Positions 13,091 to 62,941 of a stretch of 64,000 bases of DNA are shown here, one piece after another (position 1 is the first letter of the stretch; each line of letters opens with the position of its first letter). A model generated the notes under the pieces. The model had not been told where the DNA came from and searched no databases. It worked only from the letters and a program-made list of their open reading frames with translations. The DNA is from Herbiconiux sp. Lineage in GTDB: Bacteria; Actinomycetota; Actinomycetes; Actinomycetales; Microbacteriaceae. Both the position numbers and the translations under genes were made by a program. Location: the NCBI RefSeq assembly GCF_023264855.1, contig NZ_JAHFUW010000002.1:1-64000 (forward strand). The letters run 5' to 3'.

Positions 13091-14320
13091 TCACCAGTCG
13101 TGCATGGTGCCGTCGGGCAGGCGGTTGAAGGGCAGGTAGGCCCGCTGATACGGGAACTCGGCCGCCGCCTGCTCGTCGACGTCGACACCGAGCCCGGGGC
13201 GATCCGAGGGATGCAGGTAGCCGTCGACGAAGGTCATGCCCTGGTCGAAGACCCGATTGGTGCGGTCGCTGTGCAGCATGTATTCCTGGATGCCGAAGTT
13301 GTGGATGCTGAGACCCACGTGCACCTGCGCGGCGAATCCGATCGGCGAGACATCCGTCGGTCCGTGGAAGCCGGACTTGATCTGGTACTGCGCCGCGAAG
13401 TCCATCACCTTGCGCAGCGGCGAGACACCGCCGAAGTGGGTCGAGGCGGCGCGCACGTAGTCGATCAGCTGATTGCTGATGAGGTGCTGGAAGTCCCACA
13501 CCGTGTTGAACACCTCGCCGATGGCGAGCGGGGTGATGGTGTTGCGGCGAACCACCTCCAGCGCCTGAGGATTCTCGGCCGGGGTGCAGTCCTCGAGCCA
13601 GAACAGGTCGTAGGGCTCGAGCGACCGGCCGAGCCGCGAGGCCTGCAGGGGTGTCATCCGGTGGTGCCCGTCGTGCAGCAGGGGCAGCTCCGCACCGAAC
13701 TCGTTGCGCACCGCCTCGAAGACGGTCGGCAGGTGGCGCAGGTAGGCGCCGGTGTCCCAGTCCTCCTCGGTCGGCAGAGGCCCCCGGCCTGCCGGCTCGT
13801 AGTCGTAGCGCTCGCCGCTCGCCTGGGCCTGGGCGGCCACTCCGTAGACGGCATTCACGCCGGGGATGGCGGTCTGGATGCGCACCGAGCGGTGACCCTC
13901 GGCCAGGGTGGCGCGCACGGAGTCGAACAGTTCGGGCAGATCGCGACCGGAGGCGTGGCCGTAGGTGTGCAGCCCCACCCGGCTCGCTCCGCCCAGCAGC
14001 TGGTAGAGGGGAAGCCCGGCGACCTTGGCCTTGATGTCCCAGAGGGCCATGTCGACGGCGGCGATGGCGGCCATCGTGACCGGCCCCCGTCGCCAATACG
14101 CACTCCGGTACAGGAACTGCCAGGTGTCTTCGATGGCGTGGGCGTCGCGACCGATCAGCAGGGGCACCACGTGCTCGGCGAGATAGGTGCTCACGGCGAG
14201 CTCGCGCCCGTTCAGGGTGCCGTCGCCCCAGCCGACCACCCCGTCGTCGGTGGTGATCTTCAGCGTGACGAAGTTGCGGCTCGGACTGGTGACGATGACG
14301 TCGGCGGCAGCGATGCGCAT
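13091..14320 (-). CDS. D-mannonate dehydratase-type enolase-superfamily enzyme
   Basis: The 409-residue protein belongs to the ManD/RspA branch of the enolase superfamily, which dehydrates D-mannonate (or D-gluconate) to 2-keto-3-deoxygluconate. Visible are the N-terminal cap, YWRRGPVTMAAIAAVDMALWDIK, the metal-ligand segments LLHDGHHRMTP, FWLEDCTPAENP and AIGEVFNT, the STHFGGVSPLRK strand, and the C-terminal PSDRPGLGVDVDE. It adjoins a fructuronate-reductase-type gene, which would make its substrate. Some family members are slow or inactive on mannonate, so the substrate is not certain. Confidence 0.85.
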   Translation of the reverse strand: MRIAAADVIVTSPSRNFVTLKITTDDGVVGWGDGTLNGRELAVSTYLAEHVVPLLIGRDAHAIEDTWQFLYRSAYWRRGPVTMAAIAAVDMALWDIKAKVAGLPLYQLLGGASRVGLHTYGHASGRDLPELFDSVRATLAEGHRSVRIQTAIPGVNAVYGVAAQAQASGERYDYEPAGRGPLPTEEDWDTGAYLRHLPTVFEAVRNEFGAELPLLHDGHHRMTPLQASRLGRSLEPYDLFWLEDCTPAENPQALEVVRRNTITPLAIGEVFNTVWDFQHLISNQLIDYVRAASTHFGGVSPLRKVMDFAAQYQIKSGFHGPTDVSPIGFAAQVHVGLSIHNFGIQEYMLHSDRTNRVFDQGMTFVDGYLHPSDRPGLGVDVDEQAAAEFPYQRAYLPFNRLPDGTMHDW

Positions 14321-50358: not shown

Positions 50359-51870
50359 TCAGCCCGCCAGCACGAGCACCCCGTCGATGCGACGGGGGAT
50401 GGCCGTGTACTGATCGCGGAGTTCTTCGGGCAGCGCCGACTGCGGCGCGTTCTGCCAGGCCAGCGGGCGCAGGAAGCGGCGCACGGCGGTGACGCCCACC
50501 GAGGTGTGCTGCGAGTTGGTGGAGGGCCAGGGCCCGCCGTGCTGCTGTGCCCAGGTGACCCGCACGCCCGTGGGGTAGCCGTTGAACACGATCCGCCCGG
50601 CGCTCGCCTCCAGCGAGGGCGCGAGCTCGGCGATGACGTCGGTCTCCTCGTCTTGTACGTGCAGCGTGGCCGTGAGCGAGCGCGGGATGCGGCCGAAGGC
50701 CTCCGCCACCTGCTCGAGCGAGTCGTAGCGCGCCACCACGATCAGCGGGCCGAAGCATTCCTCGGCGAGCTCCGCACCGAGGTTCGCGGCCGACGTCTCC
50801 AACAGGGTGGGCGACACCGAGAACCCGGCGCCGGCATCCGGAACCGCCGTTCCCTGCGCCACCTCCACGGCCCCGGCCGCCTTCAGCCGCTCCTCGATGT
50901 CGCCGAACGAGCCCTGGATGCGGTCGTTCAGCAGCACCTGCGGCGCCGCGCCCGCGGTGAGCCCGGCGAGCGCGTCGACGATGGCCTGACCGGATGCCCC
51001 GGCCGGCACGAAGGCGATGCCGGGCTTCGTGCAGAGCTGGCCCGCCGAGCCGGTGTAGGAGGTGAACAGGCCCTCCGCGATGGCGCCGCCCCGGGCGTCC
51101 GCCGCCCCCGGCGACACCACGAGCGGGTTGATGCTGGAGAGCTCGCCGAAGAACGGGATGGGCTCCTCGCGGGTGTCGATCGCCTTCTGCAAGGCCTCGG
51201 CCGCACCGAGCGAGCCGGTGAAGCCGGCCGCCTTGATGGCGGGGTGCTTGACGAGTTCCACTCCGGCGGCCTGGCCGTAGACGATGCCGAAGGTGCCGCG
51301 GGGCGCGCCCACGGCCTCGGCCGCCGACTGCAGCACCTCGAACGAGCGCTTGGAGGTGAGCAGGTGCGATCCGTGCGCCTTCACGATCACGGGCGAGCCG
51401 GCCGCGATCGCCGAGGCGACGTCGCCGCCGAGCACCGAGAAGGCGAAGGGGAAGTTGCTCGAGCCGAACACGGCGACCGGGCCGATCGACACCAGCATGC
51501 GACGCACATCCGGGCCCGGACCGAGCGGTGTGTCGCCCGCGTGGTCGATCGCGGCCTCGACGAAGCCGCCCTCGCGCACCGCCTCGGCGAACAGCCGGAA
51601 CTGGAAGGCGCTGCGGCCCGATTCGCCCGTGAGGCGGGCGACACCGAGTCCGGTTTCGGCGTCGGCGGTGGCCACGAGCTCGTCGCGGGCGGCTTCGACG
51701 GCATCCGCCATGGCGTCGAGCAACTGGGCGCGGAACTCACGGCCGCGGCTCTGCAGCTCGTGCGCTGCGGTGGCGGCCCGGCCGGCGAGGGCGTCGACGC
51801 CCGCGGGCGTGGTGGGCTCGATCGTGGTGGCAGCGCTAACACCCGTGCGCGGATCGGTGGTCTTCAACAT
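50359..51870 (-). CDS. Aldehyde dehydrogenase (alpha-ketoglutaric semialdehyde type)
   Basis: The 503-residue protein belongs to the NADP+-dependent ALDH branch that includes alpha-ketoglutaric semialdehyde dehydrogenase. The catalytic Cys lies in SAGQLCTKPG, and the conserved KAAGFTGSLGAAEAL and FGSSNFPFAFSVLGGD are seen. The FAH-fold enzyme encoded upstream may make its substrate, as in non-phosphorylative pentonate routes. A LacI operator sequence lies inside codons 11-15 of this frame. Confidence 0.85.
   Translation of the reverse strand: MLKTTDPRTGVSAATTIEPTTPAGVDALAGRAATAAHELQSRGREFRAQLLDAMADAVEAARDELVATADAETGLGVARLTGESGRSAFQFRLFAEAVREGGFVEAAIDHAGDTPLGPGPDVRRMLVSIGPVAVFGSSNFPFAFSVLGGDVASAIAAGSPVIVKAHGSHLLTSKRSFEVLQSAAEAVGAPRGTFGIVYGQAAGVELVKHPAIKAAGFTGSLGAAEALQKAIDTREEPIPFFGELSSINPLVVSPGAADARGGAIAEGLFTSYTGSAGQLCTKPGIAFVPAGASGQAIVDALAGLTAGAAPQVLLNDRIQGSFGDIEERLKAAGAVEVAQGTAVPDAGAGFSVSPTLLETSAANLGAELAEECFGPLIVVARYDSLEQVAEAFGRIPRSLTATLHVQDEETDVIAELAPSLEASAGRIVFNGYPTGVRVTWAQQHGGPWPSTNSQHTSVGVTAVRRFLRPLAWQNAPQSALPEELRDQYTAIPRRIDGVLVLAG
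51827..51839. promoter_or_regulatory. LacI-type operator P1 inside the ALDH 5' end
   Basis: TGGCAGCGCTAAC is identical to the site at 57540 and matches the left half of the sites at 61737 and 62989. It falls within the first codons of the aldehyde dehydrogenase gene, where it could block transcription from the lacI-ALDH gap. Confidence 0.65.
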
Positions 51871-51921: not shown

Positions 51922-53010
51922 TCAGGCGCTCTCGCGCGCCACGACCGAGAAGCCGAGATCCACCTCGGCGGTCTCGGCGGAGGTGTGGTTCATCCGGGCC
52001 AGCAGCAGCTCGCCGGCGACGGTGCCGATCTGGCGGTTGGGCACCGCGACCGTGGTGAGGGTCGGCACCAGGTGCCGGCCGATCTCGAAGTCGCCGAAGC
52101 CGGTGATCGCCAGGTCGTCGGGCACCCGGATGCCGCGGCGCGTGCACTCGAGCAGCGCACCGGCCGCGAACACGTCGCTGGCGAACATCAGCACGTCGGT
52201 CTCGGGGTGCAGCTTCAGCGTCTCGTCGAGCAGGCGCCGGCCGGTCTCGTAGTCGACGGTCGAGGTGCCGGAGTCGACCACGCGCACGGTCTCGCCGGGG
52301 AACAGCTCGGGCACGGCCTCCTCGAAGCTCGCGCGACGGGCGGCGGCACGGAAGTCGCCGCGCTGCAGCGATCCGGCGAACGTCGGATGCCGGTACCCGC
52401 GCTCGTGGGCAAACTCCACGATCGCGCGGATCGCGTCGCGGTTCGAGAAGCCGACCAGGCTGTCGATCGGGTCGTCGGTGAGATCCCAGGCCTCGATCAC
52501 GGGCACCTTCGACTCGCGCAGAAGGTGCGTGGTGTTGGCCGAGTGCTCGGTGCCGACGATGAAGATGCCGTCGGGGCGCCGGCCGAGGAAGGCCCGCACG
52601 AGCTCCTCCTCGTGAGCGGGGCGGTAACTGGTGGAGCCGATGAACAGCTGGTAGCCCGCGGGGGCGAGGATCTCTTCCAGGCCGTGCAGAGCATCCGCGA
52701 ACACCGAGGCCGAGATGGCGGGGATGATGGCGGCCACCGTCATGCTGCGGTTGGAGGCGAGGTTCGAGGCGGCGAGGTTCGGCACGTACCCGGTCTCGGC
52801 GATCGAGGCGCGCACACGCTCGAGTGTGAACTCGGAGACGAGGTCGGGGGTGCGGATGCTGCGCGAGACGGTCTGCGGCGAGACCTGCGCGTGCCGGGCG
52901 ACGTCGTCGAGCGTGACGGTGTTGGTGGAGCGGCGCGACTGGCGCGCACCCGGGGCCTCGACCGCGGGCGCGATCAGCGACTCGGCGACCGCCACCCCGT
53001 CGCTGCTCAC
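51922..53010 (-). CDS. LacI-family transcriptional regulator (island 2)
   Basis: The 362-residue protein has an unusual 30-residue N-terminal extension before the helix-turn-helix TVTLDDVARHAQVSPQTVSR (residues 31-50). The effector domain follows (VAAIIPAISASVFADALHG, FASDVFAAGALLECTRRG, GFGDFEIGRHLVPTLTTV); it resembles GntR-type LacI members. The GTG at 53010 overlaps the FAH stop (GTGA). It probably binds the GGCAGCGCTGCC-type operators at 51827, 57540, 61728-61750 and 62989-63014. Confidence 0.9.
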   Translation of the reverse strand: MSSDGVAVAESLIAPAVEAPGARQSRRSTNTVTLDDVARHAQVSPQTVSRSIRTPDLVSEFTLERVRASIAETGYVPNLAASNLASNRSMTVAAIIPAISASVFADALHGLEEILAPAGYQLFIGSTSYRPAHEEELVRAFLGRRPDGIFIVGTEHSANTTHLLRESKVPVIEAWDLTDDPIDSLVGFSNRDAIRAIVEFAHERGYRHPTFAGSLQRGDFRAAARRASFEEAVPELFPGETVRVVDSGTSTVDYETGRRLLDETLKLHPETDVLMFASDVFAAGALLECTRRGIRVPDDLAITGFGDFEIGRHLVPTLTTVAVPNRQIGTVAGELLLARMNHTSAETAEVDLGFSVVARESA

Positions 53011-54209
53011 AAGAGCTGCCGCCTGGCGAGGTTCGCCATCAGCGCGCCGATCCCGAACTGCCACGGTTCGCACCTCTCGCTCTGCTCGACCTGATTGACC
53101 AGACTACCCAGTCGGGCGGAGGAGATCCGCACGATGTCGCCGGTCTTGTGGGTGAAGCCGCGTTCGGGCTCGTCGCGGTCGACGATCGGCGCGAACATCG
53201 TGCCGAGCATCAGCACCGCGCCGTCCGGATACTGGTGGTGCGAGCCGAGCAGCTGCCCGACGAGCTCGAGCGGATCGCGGCTGATCTGCGCCATCTCCGA
53301 GCTGCCGTCGAGGCGGAAGCCGTCGTCGCCGGTGATCTCGAGGGTCACGGTCATGCTGCGCACGGCGTCGAGGTCGAACCCGTCGTCGAAGAGACGGATG
53401 AGGGGGCCGAGCGCGCAGGAGGCGTTGTTGTCCTTGGCCTTGGGCAGCAGCAGCGCCGAACGGCCCTCGACGTCGCGCAGGTTCACGTCGTTGCCGAGGG
53501 TCGCGCCCACGATCCGCCCGGCGGAGTCGACGATCAGCGCCACCTCGGGCTCGGGGTTGTTCCACTGCGAGGTGCTGAGCACGCCCACCTGAACAGCGGT
53601 GCCCATGGCCGAGAGGCTCGGGCCCTTGGTGAAGATCTCGGCGTCGGGGCCGATGCCCACCTCGAGGTACTGGCTCCACAGGCCCTCCCCCACGAGGTAC
53701 TCCTTGAGCGCGATGGCGGCCTCGGATCCGGGGCGCACCTCGCGCAGATCGGTGCCGATCTCGGCCAGGATGCTCTCCCGCATCCGGGCGGCGGCCTCGG
53801 CGTCGCCACGCACCCGCTCCTCGATCACGCGCTCGATCATCGAGACGGCGAAGGTGACGCCGGCGGCCTTCAGCACCTGGAGGTCGACGGGGGCGAGCAG
53901 CCACGGCTGCGACCGGTCGCGGGTGGCCGTAGTCGTATTGGCGTAGATCTCGTCGAAGCCGCCGAGCCGTGCGCCGTCGCGGGCGGCCTCGCGGGCGGCG
54001 ACGGCCGGCTGCGCCTGCTCGGTGAGCGCGCTCACGGTGGCGAACCGGTGGCTCAGGTCGAACACGCCCTCGTTGGTCACGAGCACGGGCGAGGGTCCGT
54101 GCGCCTCGGGCAGCCACACCCGCCCCACGAGCGTGCCCGCGTATCCGTCGCCCGGCAGCGCCTCGGTGGCGGTGCCCGCCCAGGGAGTGGTGGGGGTGGT
54201 GCTGGTCAT
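53007..54209 (-). CDS. Fumarylacetoacetate hydrolase-fold enzyme
   Basis: The 400-residue protein has a C-terminal FAH fold with metal and substrate residues in NNPEPEVALIVDSAGRIVGATLGNDVNLRDVEGRSALLLPKAKDNNASC. The family includes 2-keto-3-deoxy-pentonate dehydratases (KdaD-like) as well as hydrolases. Next to an alpha-ketoglutaric semialdehyde dehydrogenase type gene, the dehydratase role is the better guess. ATG with TAGGAG upstream. Confidence 0.82.
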   Translation of the reverse strand: MTSTTPTTPWAGTATEALPGDGYAGTLVGRVWLPEAHGPSPVLVTNEGVFDLSHRFATVSALTEQAQPAVAAREAARDGARLGGFDEIYANTTTATRDRSQPWLLAPVDLQVLKAAGVTFAVSMIERVIEERVRGDAEAAARMRESILAEIGTDLREVRPGSEAAIALKEYLVGEGLWSQYLEVGIGPDAEIFTKGPSLSAMGTAVQVGVLSTSQWNNPEPEVALIVDSAGRIVGATLGNDVNLRDVEGRSALLLPKAKDNNASCALGPLIRLFDDGFDLDAVRSMTVTLEITGDDGFRLDGSSEMAQISRDPLELVGQLLGSHHQYPDGAVLMLGTMFAPIVDRDEPERGFTHKTGDIVRISSARLGSLVNQVEQSERCEPWQFGIGALMANLARRQLL

Positions 54210-54250
54210 CGGGACTCCTACGGTCGGTGGGGGTGCGGGCGGAAGTGAGG

Positions 54251-55054
54251 CTAGCGGCGGTGGAAGACGCCCGCGCGCTTCTCGGCGAAGGCGGCTCGGC
54301 CCTCGGCAGCGTCGTCGGTGGCGAAGGTCACCGTCTGCAGGTCGCGCTCGTAGGCGATCGCCGCATCCTGGGGGAGGTTGAACGCGGCACGGAGGTTGGC
54401 CTTGGCCGTCTCCGCCGCGATCGGCGGCCGGGCGGCGATGGTGCGGCCGAGCTCCTGCGCCCGGGCCACGAGGCCCTCGGGTTCGACGAGTTCGGAGACG
54501 AGGCTCCAGCCGAGCGCGGTCTGCGCGCTGATCGGGTCGCCGGTCATGATCATCAGCGCCGCGTTGCTCGCCCCGATCGAGTGGGCGAGGAAGGTGCTCA
54601 TGCCGCCGCCGCCGATCCAGCCGAGCTTGATCTCGGGCGCCGCGAAGCTCGCGGTCGTCGAGGCGAGGCGGATGTCGCAGATCATCGCGGTCTCGAGCCC
54701 GCCGCCGAAGGCGTAGCCGTTCACCGCGGCGATCAGCGGCTTGCGCAGCTCCCGCAGGGCGTCGCAGTAGTCGACACGATTGCGGAAGTCCCACGGCGTC
54801 GCGTACTTGTCGAGCGAGCGGATGTCGGAGCCCGCGCAGAACGCCCGCTCGCCCGCGCCGGTCAGAACCACAGCGCGCACGTCGTCGCTGTCATTGGCCC
54901 ATTCCGCGGCCTCGACCAGCGCATCCGACATCTCCTGCGTGACGGAGTTGAGCTTCTGCGGCCGGTTGAGCGTGATGGTGAGCACGCGCTCGTCGAGCTC
55001 GAGCAGGATGTCGCCGGTGGCGAGCACGGGCAGTGGGGCGGATTCGCTGGTCAT
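54251..55054 (-). CDS. Enoyl-CoA hydratase/isomerase family protein
   Basis: The 267-residue crotonase-fold protein has ITLNRPQKLNSVT, the oxyanion-hole segments GAGERAFCAGSDI and GYAFGGGLETAMICDIRLAS, and APEIKLGWIGGGG with the active-site Glu. It starts one base after the stop of the binding-protein-like gene. With the CoA-transferase gene two genes upstream it implies an acyl-CoA intermediate. Confidence 0.87.
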   Translation of the reverse strand: MTSESAPLPVLATGDILLELDERVLTITLNRPQKLNSVTQEMSDALVEAAEWANDSDDVRAVVLTGAGERAFCAGSDIRSLDKYATPWDFRNRVDYCDALRELRKPLIAAVNGYAFGGGLETAMICDIRLASTTASFAAPEIKLGWIGGGGMSTFLAHSIGASNAALMIMTGDPISAQTALGWSLVSELVEPEGLVARAQELGRTIAARPPIAAETAKANLRAAFNLPQDAAIAYERDLQTVTFATDDAAEGRAAFAEKRAGVFHRR

Positions 55055-55055
55055 C

Positions 55056-56225
55056 TCAGACCCTTTCGGCGGTGCTGCGGGTGGGGACGGAGGCATCGGC
55101 GGCGGCGTGGCCGTCGATGGGTGCGGCCGCGAAGGCCTCGTTCAGGCGGCGGATGCCCGGCTCGATGCCGAGCTCACCGGTCACGATCTCGCGCACGATC
55201 GCCGAGGCCGCGGTCTGGAACGGGATGTAGCCCGCGAAGCGCGGCCGCACCCAGGAGTCGTCGAGGGTGGCGAGCGTCGAGCGGTAGAAGTCCGCGCTGT
55301 CGCGGTTCACCTCGGCGTCGAGCCAGGCCGCGCGGTTCGAGGGCTGCCCGGCGTGCTGCGGGATGAAACCGCGCTGCGTCTGCGGATCCATCAGGTGACG
55401 GATGTGCGCCACGAGTTCGGGAGTCACCTCGGTGTGTGCGCTCACGGCGAGGCCGGTGCCGCCGATGGTCGACCCGTGACGGCCGCCGGGCACCGCCACC
55501 GGGGCATCCGCGAATCGTATGCTCGGCGAGGAATACGTGACGTACCCGTAGACGAGCGGGCAGTAGGCGATGTCGCCGGCGGTGCTCATGCGCTCGAGCA
55601 GCCCGATGGGGTTGAGCCCGGAGGTACCTTCCGGCACGCGCTCTCCGATCCCCCGCATGACCTCGAGCGCGCGCGCGGCGGTCTCGTCGGTGACGATCGG
55701 GCCGTCGGCCGGATGCTGGGCGGGGGCTTCGCCGAAGGCGACACAGAGCGAGGCGAAGGTGAGGAAGGCGTGGGGGCCGGCCAGGGAGAGGGCCACGGGG
55801 GCCGAGCGGGCGAGGTCGGCGACCTCGGCCCAGGTGGCGGGCGGTGTCCCGAGCAGGCGGGAGTCGTGCACGGCCACCTGAGCGGCGGCGTCGAGCGGCA
55901 CCGCCCACTGGTAACCGTCGACGGAGTAGGAGTCGAACGAGGGGCCGACCGCCTGGTGCGACCAGCGCTCGATGTCGGCCGCGCCGACCACGGCATCCAG
56001 CGGTTGCAGCGAGCCGTGCTCGAGCGCCTCGCCGAGGTGCGGGTGGTCGAGCACGATCAGCTCGTAGTTCTGCGCCAGGTCGTCGATGGGGTGCGACTCG
56101 AAGCCCTCGAGCGGATGCGCGCTCCACTCCAGGTCGAGATCGCCGGCCTCCCGGGCCTCGGCCGCGGCCGCCTCGAGCGCGTCGCGGCCACGCGGGTGGT
56201 CCCAGGTGATGCCGCGCAGAGTCAT
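55056..56225 (-). CDS. Substrate-binding-protein-like protein without signal peptide
   Basis: The 389-residue protein begins MTLRGITWDHPRGRDALEAAAAEA and continues with LIVLDHPHLGEALEHGSLQPLD, YQWAVPLDAAAQVAVHDSRLLG and TPPATWAEVADLA. This is the two-lobe layout of family 1 extracellular sugar-binding proteins. There is no signal peptide, lipobox or membrane segment, and no ABC permease genes adjoin it. It overlaps the CoA-transferase stop (ATGA) and is one base from the enoyl-CoA hydratase gene. It is likely a cytosolic protein, perhaps a carrier or a subunit of the CoA enzymes; unproven. Confidence 0.75.
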   Translation of the reverse strand: MTLRGITWDHPRGRDALEAAAAEAREAGDLDLEWSAHPLEGFESHPIDDLAQNYELIVLDHPHLGEALEHGSLQPLDAVVGAADIERWSHQAVGPSFDSYSVDGYQWAVPLDAAAQVAVHDSRLLGTPPATWAEVADLARSAPVALSLAGPHAFLTFASLCVAFGEAPAQHPADGPIVTDETAARALEVMRGIGERVPEGTSGLNPIGLLERMSTAGDIAYCPLVYGYVTYSSPSIRFADAPVAVPGGRHGSTIGGTGLAVSAHTEVTPELVAHIRHLMDPQTQRGFIPQHAGQPSNRAAWLDAEVNRDSADFYRSTLATLDDSWVRPRFAGYIPFQTAASAIVREIVTGELGIEPGIRRLNEAFAAAPIDGHAAADASVPTRSTAERV

Positions 56226-57484
56226 GCGGGTTCTCGCACCGAAGCGGGCTCCGAGGCGGGCTCCGCCGACTCCGACGCCAGCACGCCGGCGGCCAGCAGC
56301 GAGTCGATGCGCGCCGCGTCCAGCCCCAGCTCGGCCACGATCTCGCGCGTGTGCTGGCCGGTCAGCGGCGCCCCGCGGTCGATACGCGCGGGCGTCTCCG
56401 AGAGCTTGTACGGGAATCCGGGGGTCTTCACGAGCCCCTCGGTGGGGTGCTCGTACTCGATGAAGGTGCCGTTGTGCGCGATCTGCTCGTCGTCGACGAG
56501 GTCTTGGTAGTCGTACACGGGACCTGCCCAGATGCCGGCCGCCGAGAAGGCCTCGAGCCAGTGCTCCGACGACTCGGTGGCGAGCCGCGCCGCGGTGCGC
56601 GAGAAGATCTCGTCGCGATGCGTCCAGCTGTCGGTCTCGGTGTCGAGCCCGGCGAAGAACGGATCGCCGATCACCTCGCCGAGCGCGTGCAGCTCGGGCA
56701 TCGCAAGCGCGATGTAGCCGTCGGCCGTGGCGAAGGCGCCGTACGGGGCACGGATGTAGACATGCGCGTGCGGTTCGGCGCTGCGCTTCTGCGCCACCCC
56801 GCCGACGGTGAACACCGAGAGCTCCTGCATCTGCAGCGTGGTGATGGCATCGAGCATGTTCACCGACACGAGCTGCCCCTGGCCGGTGCGCTCCCGGTGG
56901 AAAAGCGCGGCGAGCACGCCCTCGAAGGCGGTGGAGGCCGTGATGGCGTCGACCAGGTACTGCCCGGCCGGGGTAGGCGGATGCCCCGCGCTGCCGGCCG
57001 AGAGCATGGCGCCGCTCATCGCCTGCAGCAGCAGGTCTTGCCCCGGACGGTTGCGGTAGGGGCCGTCTTCGCCGTAGCCCGAGATCGACACGTAGACGAT
57101 CGACGGGTTGATCGCCTTCAGCGTCTCGTAGTCGACGCCGAGCCGGGCGGCGACGCCGGGCCGGTAGTTCTGCAGGAAGACGTCGGCCGTCTTCACGAGC
57201 TCGTACAGGATCTCCTTGCCGTCGGGCGACTTGAGGTCGACCCCGATGGAGCGCTTGTTGCGGTTCAGCGAGAGGAACGAGACGTTGATGCGATTGCCCG
57301 TGGCGCCGCCCGCCGCCGCGTGCCGCTGCCACTCGCCGGTGGTCGGCTCGACCTTGATCACGTCGGCCCCGAGGTCGCCGAGACGCTGCGCGGCGAAGGG
57401 ACCGGCCATGGCGATCGAGCAGTCGAGCACCCGGATGCCGGAGAGCACTTCGGGAGCCGAGTCTGCGGCGGTGGATTCAGTCAT
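56222..57484 (-). CDS. CaiB/BaiF family (class III) CoA-transferase
   Basis: The 420-residue protein has VLDCSIAMAGPFAAQRLGDLGADVIKVEPTTGEWQR, FLSLNRNKRSIGVDLKSPDGK, DVFLQNYRPGVAARLGVDYE, and the active-site Asp region GQYLVDAITASTAFEG. It moves CoA between organic acids. It is first in a CoA-transferase/binding-protein-like/crotonase/FAH/lacI run, behind operator P2 (57540). Confidence 0.9.
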   Translation of the reverse strand: MTESTAADSAPEVLSGIRVLDCSIAMAGPFAAQRLGDLGADVIKVEPTTGEWQRHAAAGGATGNRINVSFLSLNRNKRSIGVDLKSPDGKEILYELVKTADVFLQNYRPGVAARLGVDYETLKAINPSIVYVSISGYGEDGPYRNRPGQDLLLQAMSGAMLSAGSAGHPPTPAGQYLVDAITASTAFEGVLAALFHRERTGQGQLVSVNMLDAITTLQMQELSVFTVGGVAQKRSAEPHAHVYIRAPYGAFATADGYIALAMPELHALGEVIGDPFFAGLDTETDSWTHRDEIFSRTAARLATESSEHWLEAFSAAGIWAGPVYDYQDLVDDEQIAHNGTFIEYEHPTEGLVKTPGFPYKLSETPARIDRGAPLTGQHTREIVAELGLDAARIDSLLAAGVLASESAEPASEPASVREPA

Positions 57485-57594: not shown

Positions 57595-58722
57595 CTATTC
57601 GGGCTGACCGGCGATGGAGCGGATGGCGTCGCGCACCGCATCGACCTCGGCAGGGCCCTCGAGCACCCGGATGACCGTCGAGTACTCGCGGCGCTCGCCG
57701 TGCTCGAGGAAGGTCATCGAGCCGTCGTCGCGAGCCGCACCGTCGCCGCCCACGTGGTGGGTCGAGGGCTCCAGGCCCACGGCGTACTGGCCGGCGCGCA
57801 GGTTCTGCCACTCGAAGAAGTGCGGCATGCCCGCCGCGGTCCAGCTCACCTCGACGCCCCGGGCGCCGTCGGCGGCCAGCAGCGCCACGTGGTGACGGCC
57901 GTCCGCATCCGGCACCAGTTCGTGCTCGAACACCTGCTCGACGAAGCCCGTGATCGGTGCCGGCAGAATGCGGTACGAGACGCCCTGCTCGGCCGCCGAG
58001 TCGGAGGCCCAGAGCGTCTTGGCGATCGGCGCCACGAACTCGGTGCCCTCGTCGACGAAGGGCCAGCCGATGTTCAGGTGGTAGAGGAACATGTGCGGCG
58101 TCGGCTCGAAGCCGAGGTTGTCGACAACGTCGTGCAGGCGGATCTCGCGCCCGTCGAAGTCGAGCTCGATCGTGCGGGTGAGCCGCAGGTGCTCGCCGAA
58201 GGAGGTGGCCTGGATCACCTCGCCGACCACCCGCAACACCGGAGTGCCCGACGGGTCGGCGGCCGGCACCTCGCGCGCCTCGAGCAGCTTCGCCGGGATG
58301 GCGGTCAGCCGGCCGTGCAAGCCGTGCGTCACCGACTGCTTGGGCGGGTAGCCGTAGCGCGTGGCGTCGACCTCGCCGCCGAAGAGCGTGTGGTCGAGGC
58401 CGCCGCTGACCAGCAACCCGTCGAGAGCACGGAGCCACGAGAGCCCGCCCTCGTCGCTGTGCTCGTGCAGGCCCGGGTGCCGGAAGCCGTTGCCCGAGCG
58501 CCAGCCGAACGGCACGCCGCGCAGCGAGGCGGAGCCGAGGTCGAAGGCCCGGTCGACGAGCACTTCGAGTTCGAGACCGGCCGCGGTGCGCAGCTGCAGG
58601 GCGCGAACACCCCTCTCCACTCCGTCGTCGAGCACGACCGAGCGGATGCCCGCCACAGCCGACAGGTCGCCGGTGCGCCGTTCGAGGTCGAGCCGCGAGA
58701 GCTCGGTGCCGAAGATGTTCAC
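57595..58722 (-). CDS. DUF4432 (aldose-epimerase-like) protein
   Basis: The 375-residue protein has a galactose-mutarotase-like beta-sandwich: LEVLVDRAFDLGSASLRGVPFGWRSGNGF, HGLHGRLTAIPAK, PHMFLYHLNIGWPF, and HFFEWQNLRAGQYAVGLEPSTHH, with conserved His and Glu. The family is usually near sugar-acid catabolic genes and may act as an epimerase. It precedes operator P2 and follows an SDR gene. Confidence 0.83.
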   Translation of the reverse strand: MNIFGTELSRLDLERRTGDLSAVAGIRSVVLDDGVERGVRALQLRTAAGLELEVLVDRAFDLGSASLRGVPFGWRSGNGFRHPGLHEHSDEGGLSWLRALDGLLVSGGLDHTLFGGEVDATRYGYPPKQSVTHGLHGRLTAIPAKLLEAREVPAADPSGTPVLRVVGEVIQATSFGEHLRLTRTIELDFDGREIRLHDVVDNLGFEPTPHMFLYHLNIGWPFVDEGTEFVAPIAKTLWASDSAAEQGVSYRILPAPITGFVEQVFEHELVPDADGRHHVALLAADGARGVEVSWTAAGMPHFFEWQNLRAGQYAVGLEPSTHHVGGDGAARDDGSMTFLEHGERREYSTVIRVLEGPAEVDAVRDAIRSIAGQPE

Positions 58723-58750: not shown

Positions 58751-59497
58751 TCATTTCATGACCCAGCCGCCGTCGACGTTGATGGTCTGACCCGTCACGA
58801 ACGACGAGTCGGGGCCCACCAGGAACGACACGACCGCGGCGAGCTCGGCATCCGTGCCCCGGCGCTTGATGGCCTGGTGCTCGATGACGTGCGCCGAGTA
58901 CTCGGCGGCGTCGCCCTGGATCTCCTCGGCCTTCGTGGGGAAGGCGCCAGGAGCCACCGCGTTCACGCGCACCCCGAACTCGCCGAGCTCGCGGGCAAGG
59001 GCACGGGTGAGCGCCACCGCGGCGCCCTTGGTGGAGACGTAGCTGGCCAGGTTCGACCAGCCGCCGTTCCAGGTGATCGAGCCGACGTTGACGATCGCCC
59101 CGGAGCGGCGCGCGACCATGCCGCGCGCCGCCACCTGGGCCGCGTAGAAGTAGCCCCGCTGGTTCACGGTGACGACGTCGTCGTACTCCGAGAGGGGGAT
59201 CTCGAGGAACGGCGTGCTCGGGTAGATCGCGGCGTTGTTCACGAGCGCCTCGACCGGGCCGAACTCCGCCTCCGTGGTGCTGATCGCCGCCTCGATGGCC
59301 GAGGCGTCGCGCAGGTCGACCTCGAGCATCCGTGCGCCGGCCCCGGCGGCCTCCACCAACGCCACCGTCTCGGCGAGCTCGACGCTCGGCCGCCCCAGCG
59401 CCCCGATGGCGAACCCGTCGGCCGCCAGCCGCAGGGCGGTCGCCCGCCCGAGCGCCCCGCCGGCCCCCGTGATCACCGCTACTTTGTCGTGCACCAC
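58751..59497 (-). CDS. Short-chain dehydrogenase/reductase
   Basis: The 248-residue SDR has VITGAGGALGRATAL, LVNNAAIYPS, VNVGSITWNGG and the active-site YVSTK, and it ends VDGGWVMK. NAD(P)-dependent oxidation of a sugar or sugar acid is likely, given the neighbours. Start follows the TIM-barrel gene by 46 bases. Confidence 0.87.
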   Translation of the reverse strand: MVHDKVAVITGAGGALGRATALRLAADGFAIGALGRPSVELAETVALVEAAGAGARMLEVDLRDASAIEAAISTTEAEFGPVEALVNNAAIYPSTPFLEIPLSEYDDVVTVNQRGYFYAAQVAARGMVARRSGAIVNVGSITWNGGWSNLASYVSTKGAAVALTRALARELGEFGVRVNAVAPGAFPTKAEEIQGDAAEYSAHVIEHQAIKRRGTDAELAAVVSFLVGPDSSFVTGQTINVDGGWVMK

Positions 59498-59543: not shown

Positions 59544-60458
59544 TCAGATCGTGTACTTCTTGAGGATATCCGTGACGAACTGCTTGGCCCGGGGGATGTC
59601 GCTCTCGTCGAGGTGCTCGATGATCAGCGGCGCGTTCGGGCTCTGCTCGGAGAGGCGCTGCAGGTACAGCTCGTAGTCGAGCGAGCCGAGACCCGCAGCC
59701 GGCAGCTCGATCTCGCCGACACCGCGGAAGGTGTGCGAGGCCAGCGCGTCGTCGTCGCCGATGTCGGCGTGCTTCTCGCTCTTGTCGTCGCCCGCGCGCT
59801 TGACGTCTTTGGCGTGGGCCACTCGCACGCGGTCGCCGAGGGTGTCGAAGACCTCGTTGAGCACGAGCGCCTGGTCGTCGATGTTGGTGGCGTCGAAGTA
59901 GTTCGTCGGGTCCATCAGCAGCTCGAGGCCGGGGGTGCGGATGTCGTTGAACACGCGCACGGTCTCGCGCACCGAGCCGATGACGTTGTTCACGTAGGTC
60001 TCGAGCAGGAAGGTGGCGCCGTGGTCGTAGGCCTCCTGGGCCAGCTCGGCGAGCACGGTGCGCACCTGGTCGTAGGCGTCTTCGGAGCGGTTGTGCGGGT
60101 CGTGGTCCCACTCGCTCTCGGGGTTGAAGGTGCCCGACTCGGAGATGACGTACTTGCTGCCGAAGTTGCGGGCGTTGCGGATGATCTCCTTGAGGTACGC
60201 CACGTTGGCGGCGCGGTGCTCGGGGTCGGGGTGCACGATGTTGGTGTAACCCGAGATGGCCGAGATCGGCAGGTCGTGGTCGCGGAAGGTGTCGCTGACC
60301 AGCTTCGCCTTCTCCTTGGTGATCTGGCCCGCGCTCAGGTCGAGATCTTTGAAGTGCAGGTCGAGCTGCACCGTGTTGAAGCCCTGCGCGCGGATCTTCT
60401 CGGCGGTAGTTTTGAGGTCGTAGGGGTAGTAGGCGGTGAAGATGCCCAGCTGGATCAT
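59544..60458 (-). CDS. Sugar phosphate isomerase/epimerase-like TIM barrel
   Basis: The 304-residue AP-endonuclease-2-like barrel has metal ligands visible as Glu in FLLETYV, Asp in LMDPTNYFD, His in VAHAKDVKR and Glu in IIEHLDES. Such enzymes isomerise or epimerise keto-sugars and inosose. Next to a Gfo/Idh/MocA gene this is a common pair in inositol- or sugar-type routes. Confidence 0.85.
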   Translation of the reverse strand: MIQLGIFTAYYPYDLKTTAEKIRAQGFNTVQLDLHFKDLDLSAGQITKEKAKLVSDTFRDHDLPISAISGYTNIVHPDPEHRAANVAYLKEIIRNARNFGSKYVISESGTFNPESEWDHDPHNRSEDAYDQVRTVLAELAQEAYDHGATFLLETYVNNVIGSVRETVRVFNDIRTPGLELLMDPTNYFDATNIDDQALVLNEVFDTLGDRVRVAHAKDVKRAGDDKSEKHADIGDDDALASHTFRGVGEIELPAAGLGSLDYELYLQRLSEQSPNAPLIIEHLDESDIPRAKQFVTDILKKYTI

Positions 60459-60563: not shown

Positions 60564-61670
60564 CTAGAGGGGGAACTCGTCGAGCCGAACCGGGCGCTTC
60601 TCGGCGATCGAGCGGTAGCCCGCCTCGATCAGCGCCATGGTCTTGACGTTGTCGGCGACCGAGAGCTCGGGCGCGGTGGCGGTGTCGACCGCGTACTGCA
60701 CCTGCTCCATCACGCCGATGAACGCGTGCGGGAACCAGTGTGTGTCCCAGCTCGGCTGCACCCACTGGCCGCCGGTGGTGAGCTTGGAGGCGTAGCGGAT
60801 GGTGGAGGGTTCGCCGGTGGGCCAGCCGATGGTGCCGTTGGCCACGCCCGCGGTGCCCTCGACGCGCCACTTGATGAAGAAGTCGTCGTCGTAGCCCTCC
60901 TCGCAGGGGCCGCCCCAGACATCCTCGACGCTGAGCGCCAGGACGTTCCCCGGGAAGCGCAGCGTGGAGACGACGATGCCGTCTTCGTGCTCGAACGTGG
61001 TGCGCGGGTCTTCGCGCACCACCGTGGTGATCTCGCTCGGGTCGCCGAAGAGGTACCGCAGCGCATCCAGGTGGTGCACGCTCATGTTCGCAAGGGTCAG
61101 CCGGTCGTAGCCCTCGAGGAAGCCCTGCCAGTGCGGCACGGCGTGCATGTCGATCTGCGCGAACACGGGGTCACCCAGGGCGCCGGCGTCGAGCAGCTGC
61201 TTGAGCACCCGGATCGACTGGTCGAAGCGCATGTTCTGGTTGACCGAGAGGATCTTCCCTGCCGCAGCGGCCTCGTCGCGCAGCGCGATCGCTTCGTCGA
61301 GGTCGAGCGCGAGCGGCTTCTGGGCCAGCACCGCCTTGATGTGCGGCTGGGCCAGCGCGGCACGGATGAGCGCCGGTTGCAGGTCGGGCGGATACGCGAT
61401 GTCGAGGATCTCGATGGCGGGATCGGCGATCAGCTGCTCGGGCGTCTCGTGCACGGTCGCGATGTCGTAGCGATCGGCCACCGCCTGAGCGTTGGCTTTG
61501 GTGCGGGAGGCGATGGCCACGACCGGGAACCCGGCCAGCTGGTACGCGGCGAGGTGCTGGTCGGCCATGATGGCGCCGGCGCCGATGCAGCCGATGCGGT
61601 GGCTGCGGCTGCGGATGTCGACATCCGGGGCGAGAGCATCCGGCGCGAGGGCATCGGGTGTGAGGGTCAC
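60564..61670 (-). CDS. Gfo/Idh/MocA-family oxidoreductase (island 2)
   Basis: The 368-residue protein has the Rossmann motif RIGCIGAGAIMADQH, the EKP-like motif as QKPLAL, and MSVHHLDALRYLFGDPSE. The His-rich HHLDALR segment includes the usual active-site His. The Glu of EKP is replaced by Gln, which is uncommon but seen. It is the first minus-strand gene of the island and is divergent from the first binding protein across a double operator. Confidence 0.85.
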   Translation of the reverse strand: MTLTPDALAPDALAPDVDIRSRSHRIGCIGAGAIMADQHLAAYQLAGFPVVAIASRTKANAQAVADRYDIATVHETPEQLIADPAIEILDIAYPPDLQPALIRAALAQPHIKAVLAQKPLALDLDEAIALRDEAAAAGKILSVNQNMRFDQSIRVLKQLLDAGALGDPVFAQIDMHAVPHWQGFLEGYDRLTLANMSVHHLDALRYLFGDPSEITTVVREDPRTTFEHEDGIVVSTLRFPGNVLALSVEDVWGGPCEEGYDDDFFIKWRVEGTAGVANGTIGWPTGEPSTIRYASKLTTGGQWVQPSWDTHWFPHAFIGVMEQVQYAVDTATAPELSVADNVKTMALIEAGYRSIAEKRPVRLDEFPL

Positions 61671-61807: not shown

Positions 61808-62941
61808 ATGCGATCACCCCACGGCCGCCGCATCCGCAAGGCCCTCGCTCTCACGGCCGGGGCCACGCTCCTGGCGTCGCTGGCCGCCTGCAGCACGGGT
61901 GGCGCGGGAAGCACCGATGCCGCCGGAGACGCGGCCGGCGGCGACTGCAACGTGGGCATCTCGATGCCCACCCGCTCGCTCGAACGCTGGATCAACGACG
62001 GCGAGGGCCTGCAGAAGCTGCTGCAGGATCAGGGCTGCACCACCGACCTGCAGTACGCCGACAACAAGACCGACCAGCAGATCTCGCAGCTGCAGAACCA
62101 GATCGCGGGCGGCGCGAAGATCCTCGTCATCACCGCCATCGACGGCGAGACGCTCGGCCCGGTGCTCGCCGAGGCCCAGAAGCAGGACGTGACGGTGATC
62201 GCCTACGACCGCCTGATCAACAACAGCGACGCCGTCGACTACCACACGGGCTTCGACAACGAGAAGGTCGGCGAGCTGCAGGCGACCTACATCGTCGACA
62301 GCCTAGGGCTCGAAGACGGCAAGGGGCCGTTCACCTTCGAACCCTTCGCCGGCAGCCCCGACGACAACAACGCCCGCTACTTCTTCTCGGGGGCGTGGGA
62401 CGTGCTGCTGCCCTACGTCGCGAACGGCCAGCTGGTCGTGCCCTCGGGCAAGGCGCCGGCCTCGAACGACGACTGGGCTTCGATCGGCATCCTGGGCTGG
62501 GGTTCGGATGACGCCCAGGCTGAGATGGAGAACCGCCTGTCGTCGTTCTACACCGGCGGCGAGAAGGTCGACGTGGTGCTCTCGCCCAACGACAGCCTCG
62601 CGCTCGGCATCGAGGCCGCCCTCAAGGGCGCCGGTTACTCGGCGGGCGAGGGCTGGCCGATCGTGACGGGCCAGGATGCCGACAAGGCGAACGTGAAGGC
62701 CATCCTGAGCGGCGAGCAGGCGATGACGGCCTGGAAGGACACCCGGGTGCTGCGCGAGCGCACCGCCGAGATGATCGCCTCGATCGTGGCCGGCACCGAG
62801 GTGGAGACCACCACCGAGTTCGACAACGGCGCCACCACGGTGAAGTCGTACCAGCTCGACCCCGAGGTCGTGGTGAAGGACGACGTGCAGTCCAAGCTCG
62901 TCGACTCCGGCTTCGTGAGCGCCGCCGACGTCGGCCTGTAG
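61808..62941 (+). CDS. Sugar-binding lipoprotein (ChvE/XylF type)
   Basis: The 377-residue protein has a lipoprotein signal (LAAC, Cys28). The Peripla_BP_4 domain follows: VGISMPTRSLERWINDGEGLQ, NQIAGGAKILVITAIDG, DRLINNSDAVDYHTGFDNEKVG and VLSPNDSLALGIEAALKG. This matches the multiple-monosaccharide (ChvE-like) binding proteins that serve a CUT2 importer. RBS AAAGGAG before the ATG. It is separated by 188 bases from a second, different binding protein. Confidence 0.92.
   Translation: MRSPHGRRIRKALALTAGATLLASLAACSTGGAGSTDAAGDAAGGDCNVGISMPTRSLERWINDGEGLQKLLQDQGCTTDLQYADNKTDQQISQLQNQIAGGAKILVITAIDGETLGPVLAEAQKQDVTVIAYDRLINNSDAVDYHTGFDNEKVGELQATYIVDSLGLEDGKGPFTFEPFAGSPDDNNARYFFSGAWDVLLPYVANGQLVVPSGKAPASNDDWASIGILGWGSDDAQAEMENRLSSFYTGGEKVDVVLSPNDSLALGIEAALKGAGYSAGEGWPIVTGQDADKANVKAILSGEQAMTAWKDTRVLRERTAEMIASIVAGTEVETTTEFDNGATTVKSYQLDPEVVVKDDVQSKLVDSGFVSAADVGL

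Follow-up and report, generated by a model that had tools for sequence, protein, structure and literature searches.

The window analysed here is a stretch of 64,000 nucleotides from Herbiconiux sp. (assembly GCF_023264855.1, contig NZ_JAHFUW010000002.1, positions 1 to 64,000), whose minus strand carries a gene cluster encoding, in order of transcription, a Gfo/Idh/MocA oxidoreductase, a TIM barrel protein, a short-chain dehydrogenase (SDR), a DUF4432 protein, a class III coenzyme A (CoA)-transferase, a protein resembling the solute-binding proteins (SBPs) of transporters, a crotonase, an FAH-superfamily enzyme (FAH400), a LacI-family regulator and an aldehyde dehydrogenase. Our subject is the SBP-like protein, SBPc, and the two CoA enzymes that flank it. 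The CaiB/BaiF-type CoA-transferase (420 aa; 56222..57484, minus strand; PF02515, E 5e-109) shares its stop with the start of SBPc in an ATGA overlap (56222..56225, minus strand). SBPc itself (389 aa; 55056..56225, minus strand) is assigned as a cytosolic solute-binding-protein-like subunit without a recognisable signal peptide on the basis of its PF13416 match, an AF2 model and tests of its N-terminus. One base after its stop begins the crotonase, a member of the enoyl-CoA hydratase family in which both hydratase glutamates are present (267 aa; 54251..55054, minus strand; PF00378, E 1.1e-59). The overlap and the one-base gap, first pointed out in an earlier reading of this DNA from its letters and open reading frames (ORFs), hereafter the sequence-only reading, are exact in the sequence.

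A solute-binding-protein fold without a recognisable export signal

The model of SBPc (pLDDT 95) has the complete fold of a sugar SBP, and its two lobes, like its Pfam match above the cut-off, are shared with the solute-binding proteins of ABC transporters. Its first strand comprises residues 3-8, and its start codon is fixed by the ATGA overlap with the CoA-transferase. We compared SBPc across 75 loci, with spans of mostly 8-10 kb per side (shorter near contig ends); these loci are not independent, close relatives being among them. The chosen start lies 4-12 residues ahead of the Trp8 motif in 71 of the 75 and 14-26 residues ahead in the remaining four. A generous test, which allowed any upstream in-frame start within 80 codons and covered residues up to 12 past the Trp8 motif, found a hydrophobic leader in 0/75 SBPc proteins, compared with 17/17 of the transporter SBPs tested at these loci, for which the start was likewise picked to favour a leader. 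When the chosen starts were used with a window of 40 residues, a single SBPc (L074) of the 75 exceeded the hydrophobicity threshold. Lipobox-like patterns occurred in two of the 75 (L097, L098), yet in only 2/17 of the controls, so this test is a weak one. By the sequence tests used, SBPc is cytosolic and has no recognisable export signal, and the lack of a signal peptide noted in the window by the sequence-only reading extends to the family at all 75 loci, upstream in-frame starts included.

The same reading had stated that SBPc has no transport partners. This proved right for the immediate neighbourhood, where none of the 75 loci has a labelled permease on the strand of SBPc and within 300 bp of it, and too broad for the clusters as a whole, many of which contain ATP-binding cassette (ABC) transporters elsewhere. 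Neighbour labels throughout are phmmer matches to annotated proteins, which divergent neighbours may escape. These transporters and the full sugar-SBP fold would suit an ordinary ABC-transporter binding protein, either one that leaves the cytoplasm by some route not recognised so far or one that is a copy in decay. We regard this as very improbable, given the missing leaders beside the 17 controls that have one, the lack of adjoining permeases and, for a decaying copy, residues invariant across phyla. On account of the same invariant residues we rejected a pseudogene or a simple loss of export. Exported homologues next to ABC permease genes were not found. Two weak hits at L148 and L149 (26% identity, E near 6e-11) have a lipobox and adjoining permease genes and were set aside as lying outside the family, since they score better against exported SBPs than against SBPc.

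The conserved positions of SBPc say something about its ligand. D60, G255, G256 and R327 are invariant among 69 SBPc sequences (alignment A2, which holds 69 of the 75 rows and leaves out six) and align with an Asp, a Gly-Gly pair and an Arg in 1eu8, the trehalose/maltose-binding protein, residues that we take to hold the sugar there; a Trp of 1eu8 is replaced by Thr257. Retention of these positions makes a sugar-like ligand likely for SBPc, and the invariant Arg12 in the first loop could contact a carboxylate. Compared with the CUT1-type sugar-binding proteins (LpqY, 1eu8, SmoF), SBPc has no recognisable signal peptide or adjacent permease and lies between CoA enzymes. W8, R12, W34, H61-P62, D112 and W301 are strongly conserved, as judged within the SBPc family itself.

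Among these residues, the charged Arg12, Asp60 and Asp112 are invariant and His10 and His61 nearly so, a feature that would also be expected if SBPc were itself an enzyme, with a cleft that had gained catalytic residues and would dehydrate or isomerise a sugar acid or its CoA ester, or act on it as a lyase. Cyclohexadienyl dehydratase reportedly arose from an amino-acid binding protein, although it presumably differs from SBPc in belonging to another SBP class and in having no CoA partners. Solute-binding proteins have turned into enzymes before (PMC7683729), and SBPc resembles these SBP-derived enzymes in that the fold appears to have been recruited into metabolism. At three loci (L050, L104, L110), SBPc has no CoA-transferase in its span and lies near sugar-acid dehydratase-type genes, as this alternative would allow. 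However, SBPc has kept the residues that sugar-binding proteins show at these sites (Asp, Gly-Gly, Arg), and CoA transfer and hydration are already provided for by its partners, whose catalytic residues are complete. We consider an enzymatic SBPc unlikely.

Conserved partners and overlapping junctions

SBPc recurs in several phyla and is not a peculiarity of the window. A CoA-transferase gene lies in the span at 71/75 loci, and on the same strand within 200 bp of SBPc at 61 of them; a crotonase or a MaoC hydratase lies in the span at 68/75, and CoA-transferase and hydratase occur together at 68/75. The three-gene order described by the sequence-only reading is borne out, recurring with overlaps and without adjacent permeases across phyla, whereas the downstream setting, of a type fit for 2-keto-3-deoxypentonate (KDP), had been missed. 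Its choice of crotonase as the partner holds in the window's group; in most of the other group the hydratase slot is filled by the non-homologous MaoC. In the SBPc tree, 40 of the rows that lack FAH400 make up a single well-supported group, whose hydratase is mostly MaoC. The rows that carry FAH400 fall, with L011, L053, L054 and the long branch L078, into a remainder that the tree leaves unresolved. The enzymes on either side appear catalytically intact. Asp171 of the CoA-transferase (aligned segment), which we take to be the catalytic Asp of the class III family, is kept in at least 93% of the 75 CoA-transferases aligned, and Glu109 and Glu129 of the crotonase (aligned segment), presumably its catalytic hydratase glutamates, are kept in at least 93% of 34 sequences.

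Overlapping junctions are unevenly spread over these clusters. Under a rule applied alike to all pairs, by which a -4/-1 start was taken whenever one existed, adjacent genes overlap by four bases or one (-4/-1) in 52/57 cases from CoA-transferase to SBPc, in 24/32 from SBPc to crotonase and in 16/20 from SBPc to MaoC. Such overlaps are rare elsewhere (crotonase to FAH400, 2/26; Gfo to TIM barrel, 0/15; MaoC to CoA-transferase, 1/5; UxuA to SBPc, 1/3) and intermediate at SDR to DUF4432 (8/15), FAH400 to aldehyde dehydrogenase (6/12) and FAH400 to LacI (7/14). ABC permease pairs, the subunits of one complex, overlap in 5/6. Since the overlaps are concentrated on three genes, they point to coupled synthesis of the CoA-transferase, SBPc and the hydratase, short of proving a complex. 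Co-variation was considered as such proof and rejected, as distances correlate at 0.77-0.88 for every pair and SBPc/CoA-transferase is not singled out. At two loci, a Bacteroidota plasmid (L051:8989-12461) and a Microbacteriaceae genome (L095:7336-10795), SBPc is followed by two consecutive CoA-transferase genes, possibly encoding a heterodimeric transferase.

A possible CoA-dependent dehydration of sugar acids

The genes downstream of the crotonase place the three proteins in a sugar-acid setting. FAH400 (53007..54212, minus strand) is a possible KDP dehydratase, by its likeness to the FAH-type KDP dehydratases treated in PMC6336799. There, FAH-superfamily enzymes (COG3970) of Herbaspirillum are described as turning KDP into alpha-ketoglutarate semialdehyde, and the Herbaspirillum cluster is said also to encode a UxaA/GarD-family D-arabinonate dehydratase, described as an iron enzyme; "CoA" occurs 0 times in the main text of that article. 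By analogy, FAH400 may convert KDP likewise. It matches the PDB entries 9kkt and 2q18, and is very close to 9kkt/9kkv (E 1.3e-127), an FAH-family structure whose listed name gives no function. The aldehyde dehydrogenase (50359..51870, minus strand; PF00171, E 2.6e-38), labelled KGSADH, is co-clustered with FAH400, a gene context that suggests alpha-ketoglutarate semialdehyde as its substrate. Between them lies the LacI-family regulator (51922..53073, minus strand, true start uncertain), nearest to gluconate-type GntR, with 304 bits against NF052440 that fall below the cut-off of 400.

Among the 31 FAH400-bearing SBPc loci, none has a detected IlvD/EDD, UxaA/GarD or UxuA gene in its span, and at 19 of the 31 enolase, UxuA, UxaA and IlvD genes all went undetected in the span. 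The window genome as a whole has a single IlvD/EDD match and none to UxaA/GarD. The most compact clusters, L009 and L077, consist of SBPc, FAH400, a LacI-type regulator, the CoA-transferase, a metabolite/H+ symporter-type gene, MaoC and an aldehyde dehydrogenase. No known sugar-acid dehydratase, enolase included, and no crotonase was detected in either cluster, the family searches having been run on the L009 proteins. If an imported acid is to become the FAH400 substrate at these two loci, the genes detected there leave only the CoA-transferase, SBPc and MaoC as candidates for the conversion.

It is tempting to hypothesize that SBPc is the sugar-acid-holding middle subunit of a cytosolic module with the CoA-transferase and the hydratase, devoted to the CoA-dependent dehydration of sugar acids. 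We put this forward tentatively, as somewhat short of an even chance, favoured by the nearness of the regulator to gluconate GntR. SBPc would enclose a sugar acid, a pentonate or the like, and present it; the CoA-transferase would convert the sugar-acid carboxylate into a CoA thioester; and the hydratase, run as a dehydratase, would take the hydrogen from C2 and the hydroxyl from C3. The resulting enol would become the 2-keto-3-deoxy acyl-CoA, whose CoA would be handed to the next sugar acid, and the freed KDP would be turned into alpha-ketoglutarate by the FAH-type dehydratase and then the aldehyde dehydrogenase. In the window's group, such a module would most likely replace the usual metal-dependent pentonate dehydratase. 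A little more doubtful is the wider claim that aldonates are commonly dehydrated as CoA esters by a bound SBPc/CoA-transferase/hydratase assembly, without the known Fe-S or metal-dependent dehydratases. The sequence-only reading had supposed that the fold serves inside the cell, perhaps holding an acid for CoA transfer and hydration, an idea with which the data are compatible, though they do not prove it, and which is here made more specific.

The carnitine enzymes CaiB and CaiD offer a parallel: a class III CoA-transferase and a crotonase that act on a 3-hydroxy acid as its CoA ester, with the same presumed succession of activation and then hydration or dehydration. Unlike that pair, the window module lies in a sugar-acid setting and has an additional subunit of SBP fold, and its CoA-transferase stays far below the cut-off of the carnitine CoA-transferase model (NF002914; 151.7 bits, cut-off 413). 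The likeness to the Weimberg and Route II pentose pathways, as outlined in PMC6336799, consists in an FAH-superfamily gene resembling KDP dehydratases and an aldehyde dehydrogenase gene; unlike those pathways, SBPc clusters have the CoA-transferase, SBPc and a hydratase, and an IlvD/EDD or UxaA/GarD pentonate dehydratase went undetected. Searches of the openly licensed PubMed Central literature aimed at the module or its setting found no description of it. If the proposal is true, pentonate dehydration would gain a fourth chemical solution beside the IlvD/EDD, enolase-type and UxaA/GarD enzymes. The CoA-transferase/hydratase pairs that soil bacteria and plant-associated bacteria have in their sugar clusters would then be explained, and a binding protein would be seen to grip the substrate as one subunit of a CoA enzyme. 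Annotation assigns solute-binding proteins to transporters as a matter of routine; SBPc is a conserved family annotated in this way that appears to work in metabolism inside the cell, a hint that sugar acids may be handled there in a manner not yet described.

A number of observations weigh against this proposal, the strongest being the presence of enolase genes and the loci without a CoA-transferase. Enolase-superfamily genes are found at 12/31 FAH400-bearing SBPc loci, and the window genome has nine enolase-superfamily matches, so a conventional dehydratase may yet supply the activity. A genome-wide want of other dehydratases is thus false for the window genome. Four of the 75 loci (L050, L078, L104, L110) have no CoA-transferase in the span; in the tree, L078 is unplaced and the other three fall inside the 40-row group. 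At ten further loci a CoA-transferase is present but outside the limit of 200 bp and the same strand; one of them is L111, where it is 6.5 kb away. UxuA-type genes lie near SBPc at L050 and L111 (the L111 UxuA scoring 544 bits, cut-off 191) and enolase-type genes at L104 and L110, and the MaoC group sits in L-fucose-like clusters, a large number of them already equipped with an enolase gene. As to coupling, the SBPc/crotonase junction of the window has a one-base gap in place of an overlap, a search for CoA-transferase/SBPc fusions gave none among the ORFs scanned, and the distance correlation of SBPc with the CoA-transferase is 0.82, compared with 0.88 for the CoA-transferase and crotonase. 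As to the pathway, the aldehyde dehydrogenase falls by far under the cut-off of all curated models listed, KGSADH included, and a second FAH400/aldehyde-dehydrogenase cluster (L140) lies about 20 kb away in the L077 genome. Finally, five FAH400 loci without SBPc have a divergent CoA-transferase (L124, L127, L129, L130, L131), and four of these a labelled crotonase.

Two further alternatives draw on parts of this evidence. In the first, the CoA-transferase and hydratase would dehydrate a sugar acid and rehydrate it, so epimerising it at C2 or C3, and the product would feed an enolase-type dehydratase, with SBPc selecting the substrate. It would account for the enolase-superfamily genes that accompany the module at 12 of the 31 FAH400-bearing loci and at many loci of the MaoC group, and the CaiD of the carnitine system is said to have long been called carnitine racemase. 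No enolase, however, was detected at L009 or L077, though FAH400 and the aldehyde dehydrogenase are present there, and we consider epimerisation rather improbable. In the second, the substrate of the module would be some late intermediate or an acid other than a sugar acid, SBPc would be an accessory chaperone or sensor with an unrelated role, and the co-location would reflect no more than a shared regulon. The L009 symporter is in keeping with this, matching TIGR00883 (384.8 bits, below the cut-off of 443.45), a family that carries many organic acids; so too are the weakly identified aldehyde dehydrogenase and the additional FAH400 cluster close to L077. The concentration of overlaps on three genes and the retained sugar-type pocket positions argue otherwise, leaving this alternative with a slim chance.

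Beyond the SBPc loci, FAH400 was followed through the Microbacteriaceae, where 52 matches occur in 48/299 genomes; the 28 that lie away from SBPc were examined. An IlvD-type gene is present at three (L121, L132, L133) and an enolase-type gene at several. The group with a divergent CoA-transferase is a second link of CoA-transferases to FAH400; four of its five loci also have a lactonase-like amidohydrolase, and the L130 crotonase, the only one of the four read, has neither hydratase glutamate when aligned by eye.

Distribution of SBPc and further genes

Named members of the family come from Actinomycetota, Alpha- and Betaproteobacteria and Bacteroidota. SBPc matches at E 1e-10 or better are found in 49/299 Microbacteriaceae genomes, in one of them (G103) only through an exported outsider. 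A wide scan of the window's phylum gave at least 3/396 genomes, seed included, a lower bound set by scoring only four candidates per genome, and scans around a Rhodobacteraceae genome gave at least 2/144 in its class and at least 6/150 in its phylum, the seed genome counted. Plasmid records contain 145 matches among 72,556, including Sinorhizobium, Azospirillum, Streptomyces, Variovorax, Roseibium and Persicobacter. In arriving at the 75 loci we set aside repeats or near-copies (L002, L004, L005, L014, L052) and short loci that duplicate longer ones (L001, L016-L044), and left out L003 and L090, which have no recognisable start, as well as fragments of genome G054; L007 was rejected as a weak match, unconfirmed in its genome.

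SBPc matches recur in many large plasmids of S. meliloti and S. medicae, of which L045 and L052 were inspected. On Sinorhizobium meliloti pSymB, the CoA-transferase/SBPc pair (L045:7838-10131) lies near argH and an amino-acid transporter; no phenotype for SBPc in S. meliloti was found in the literature searched by locus tags, which may be wrong. In Microbacteriaceae (L079-L102), the MaoC-type module often stands beside L-fuconolactonase-like, rhamnose-mutarotase-like, enolase and aldo-keto reductase-like genes. SBPc adjoins UxuA-type mannonate dehydratase genes at L050:6931-10164 and L111:7986-10430. In the window, one enolase-superfamily match (MR_MLE_C) lies at 13166-13723, outside the SBPc cluster.

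Upstream of the CoA-transferase, the window cluster encodes the DUF4432 (aldose 1-epimerase-like) protein (57595..58722; PF14486, E 1.3e-83), the short-chain dehydrogenase (58751..59497; PF13561, E 1.2e-50), the xylose-isomerase-like TIM barrel protein (59544..60458; PF01261, E 2.9e-26), for which a sequence search of the PDB gave no match, and the Gfo/Idh/MocA oxidoreductase (60564..61670; PF01408, E 8.8e-18), all on the minus strand. Divergent from them, on the plus strand, is a gene for another SBP, an exported lipoprotein that belongs to a monosaccharide ABC transporter of the ChvE type and is distinct from SBPc (61808..62941; NF040907 ChvE, 425.5 bits, below the cut-off of 460), with a hydrophobic leader that ends in ...LAAC. 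Given this divergent monosaccharide-binding gene, the imported sugar is probably first oxidised to its acid before it reaches the module.

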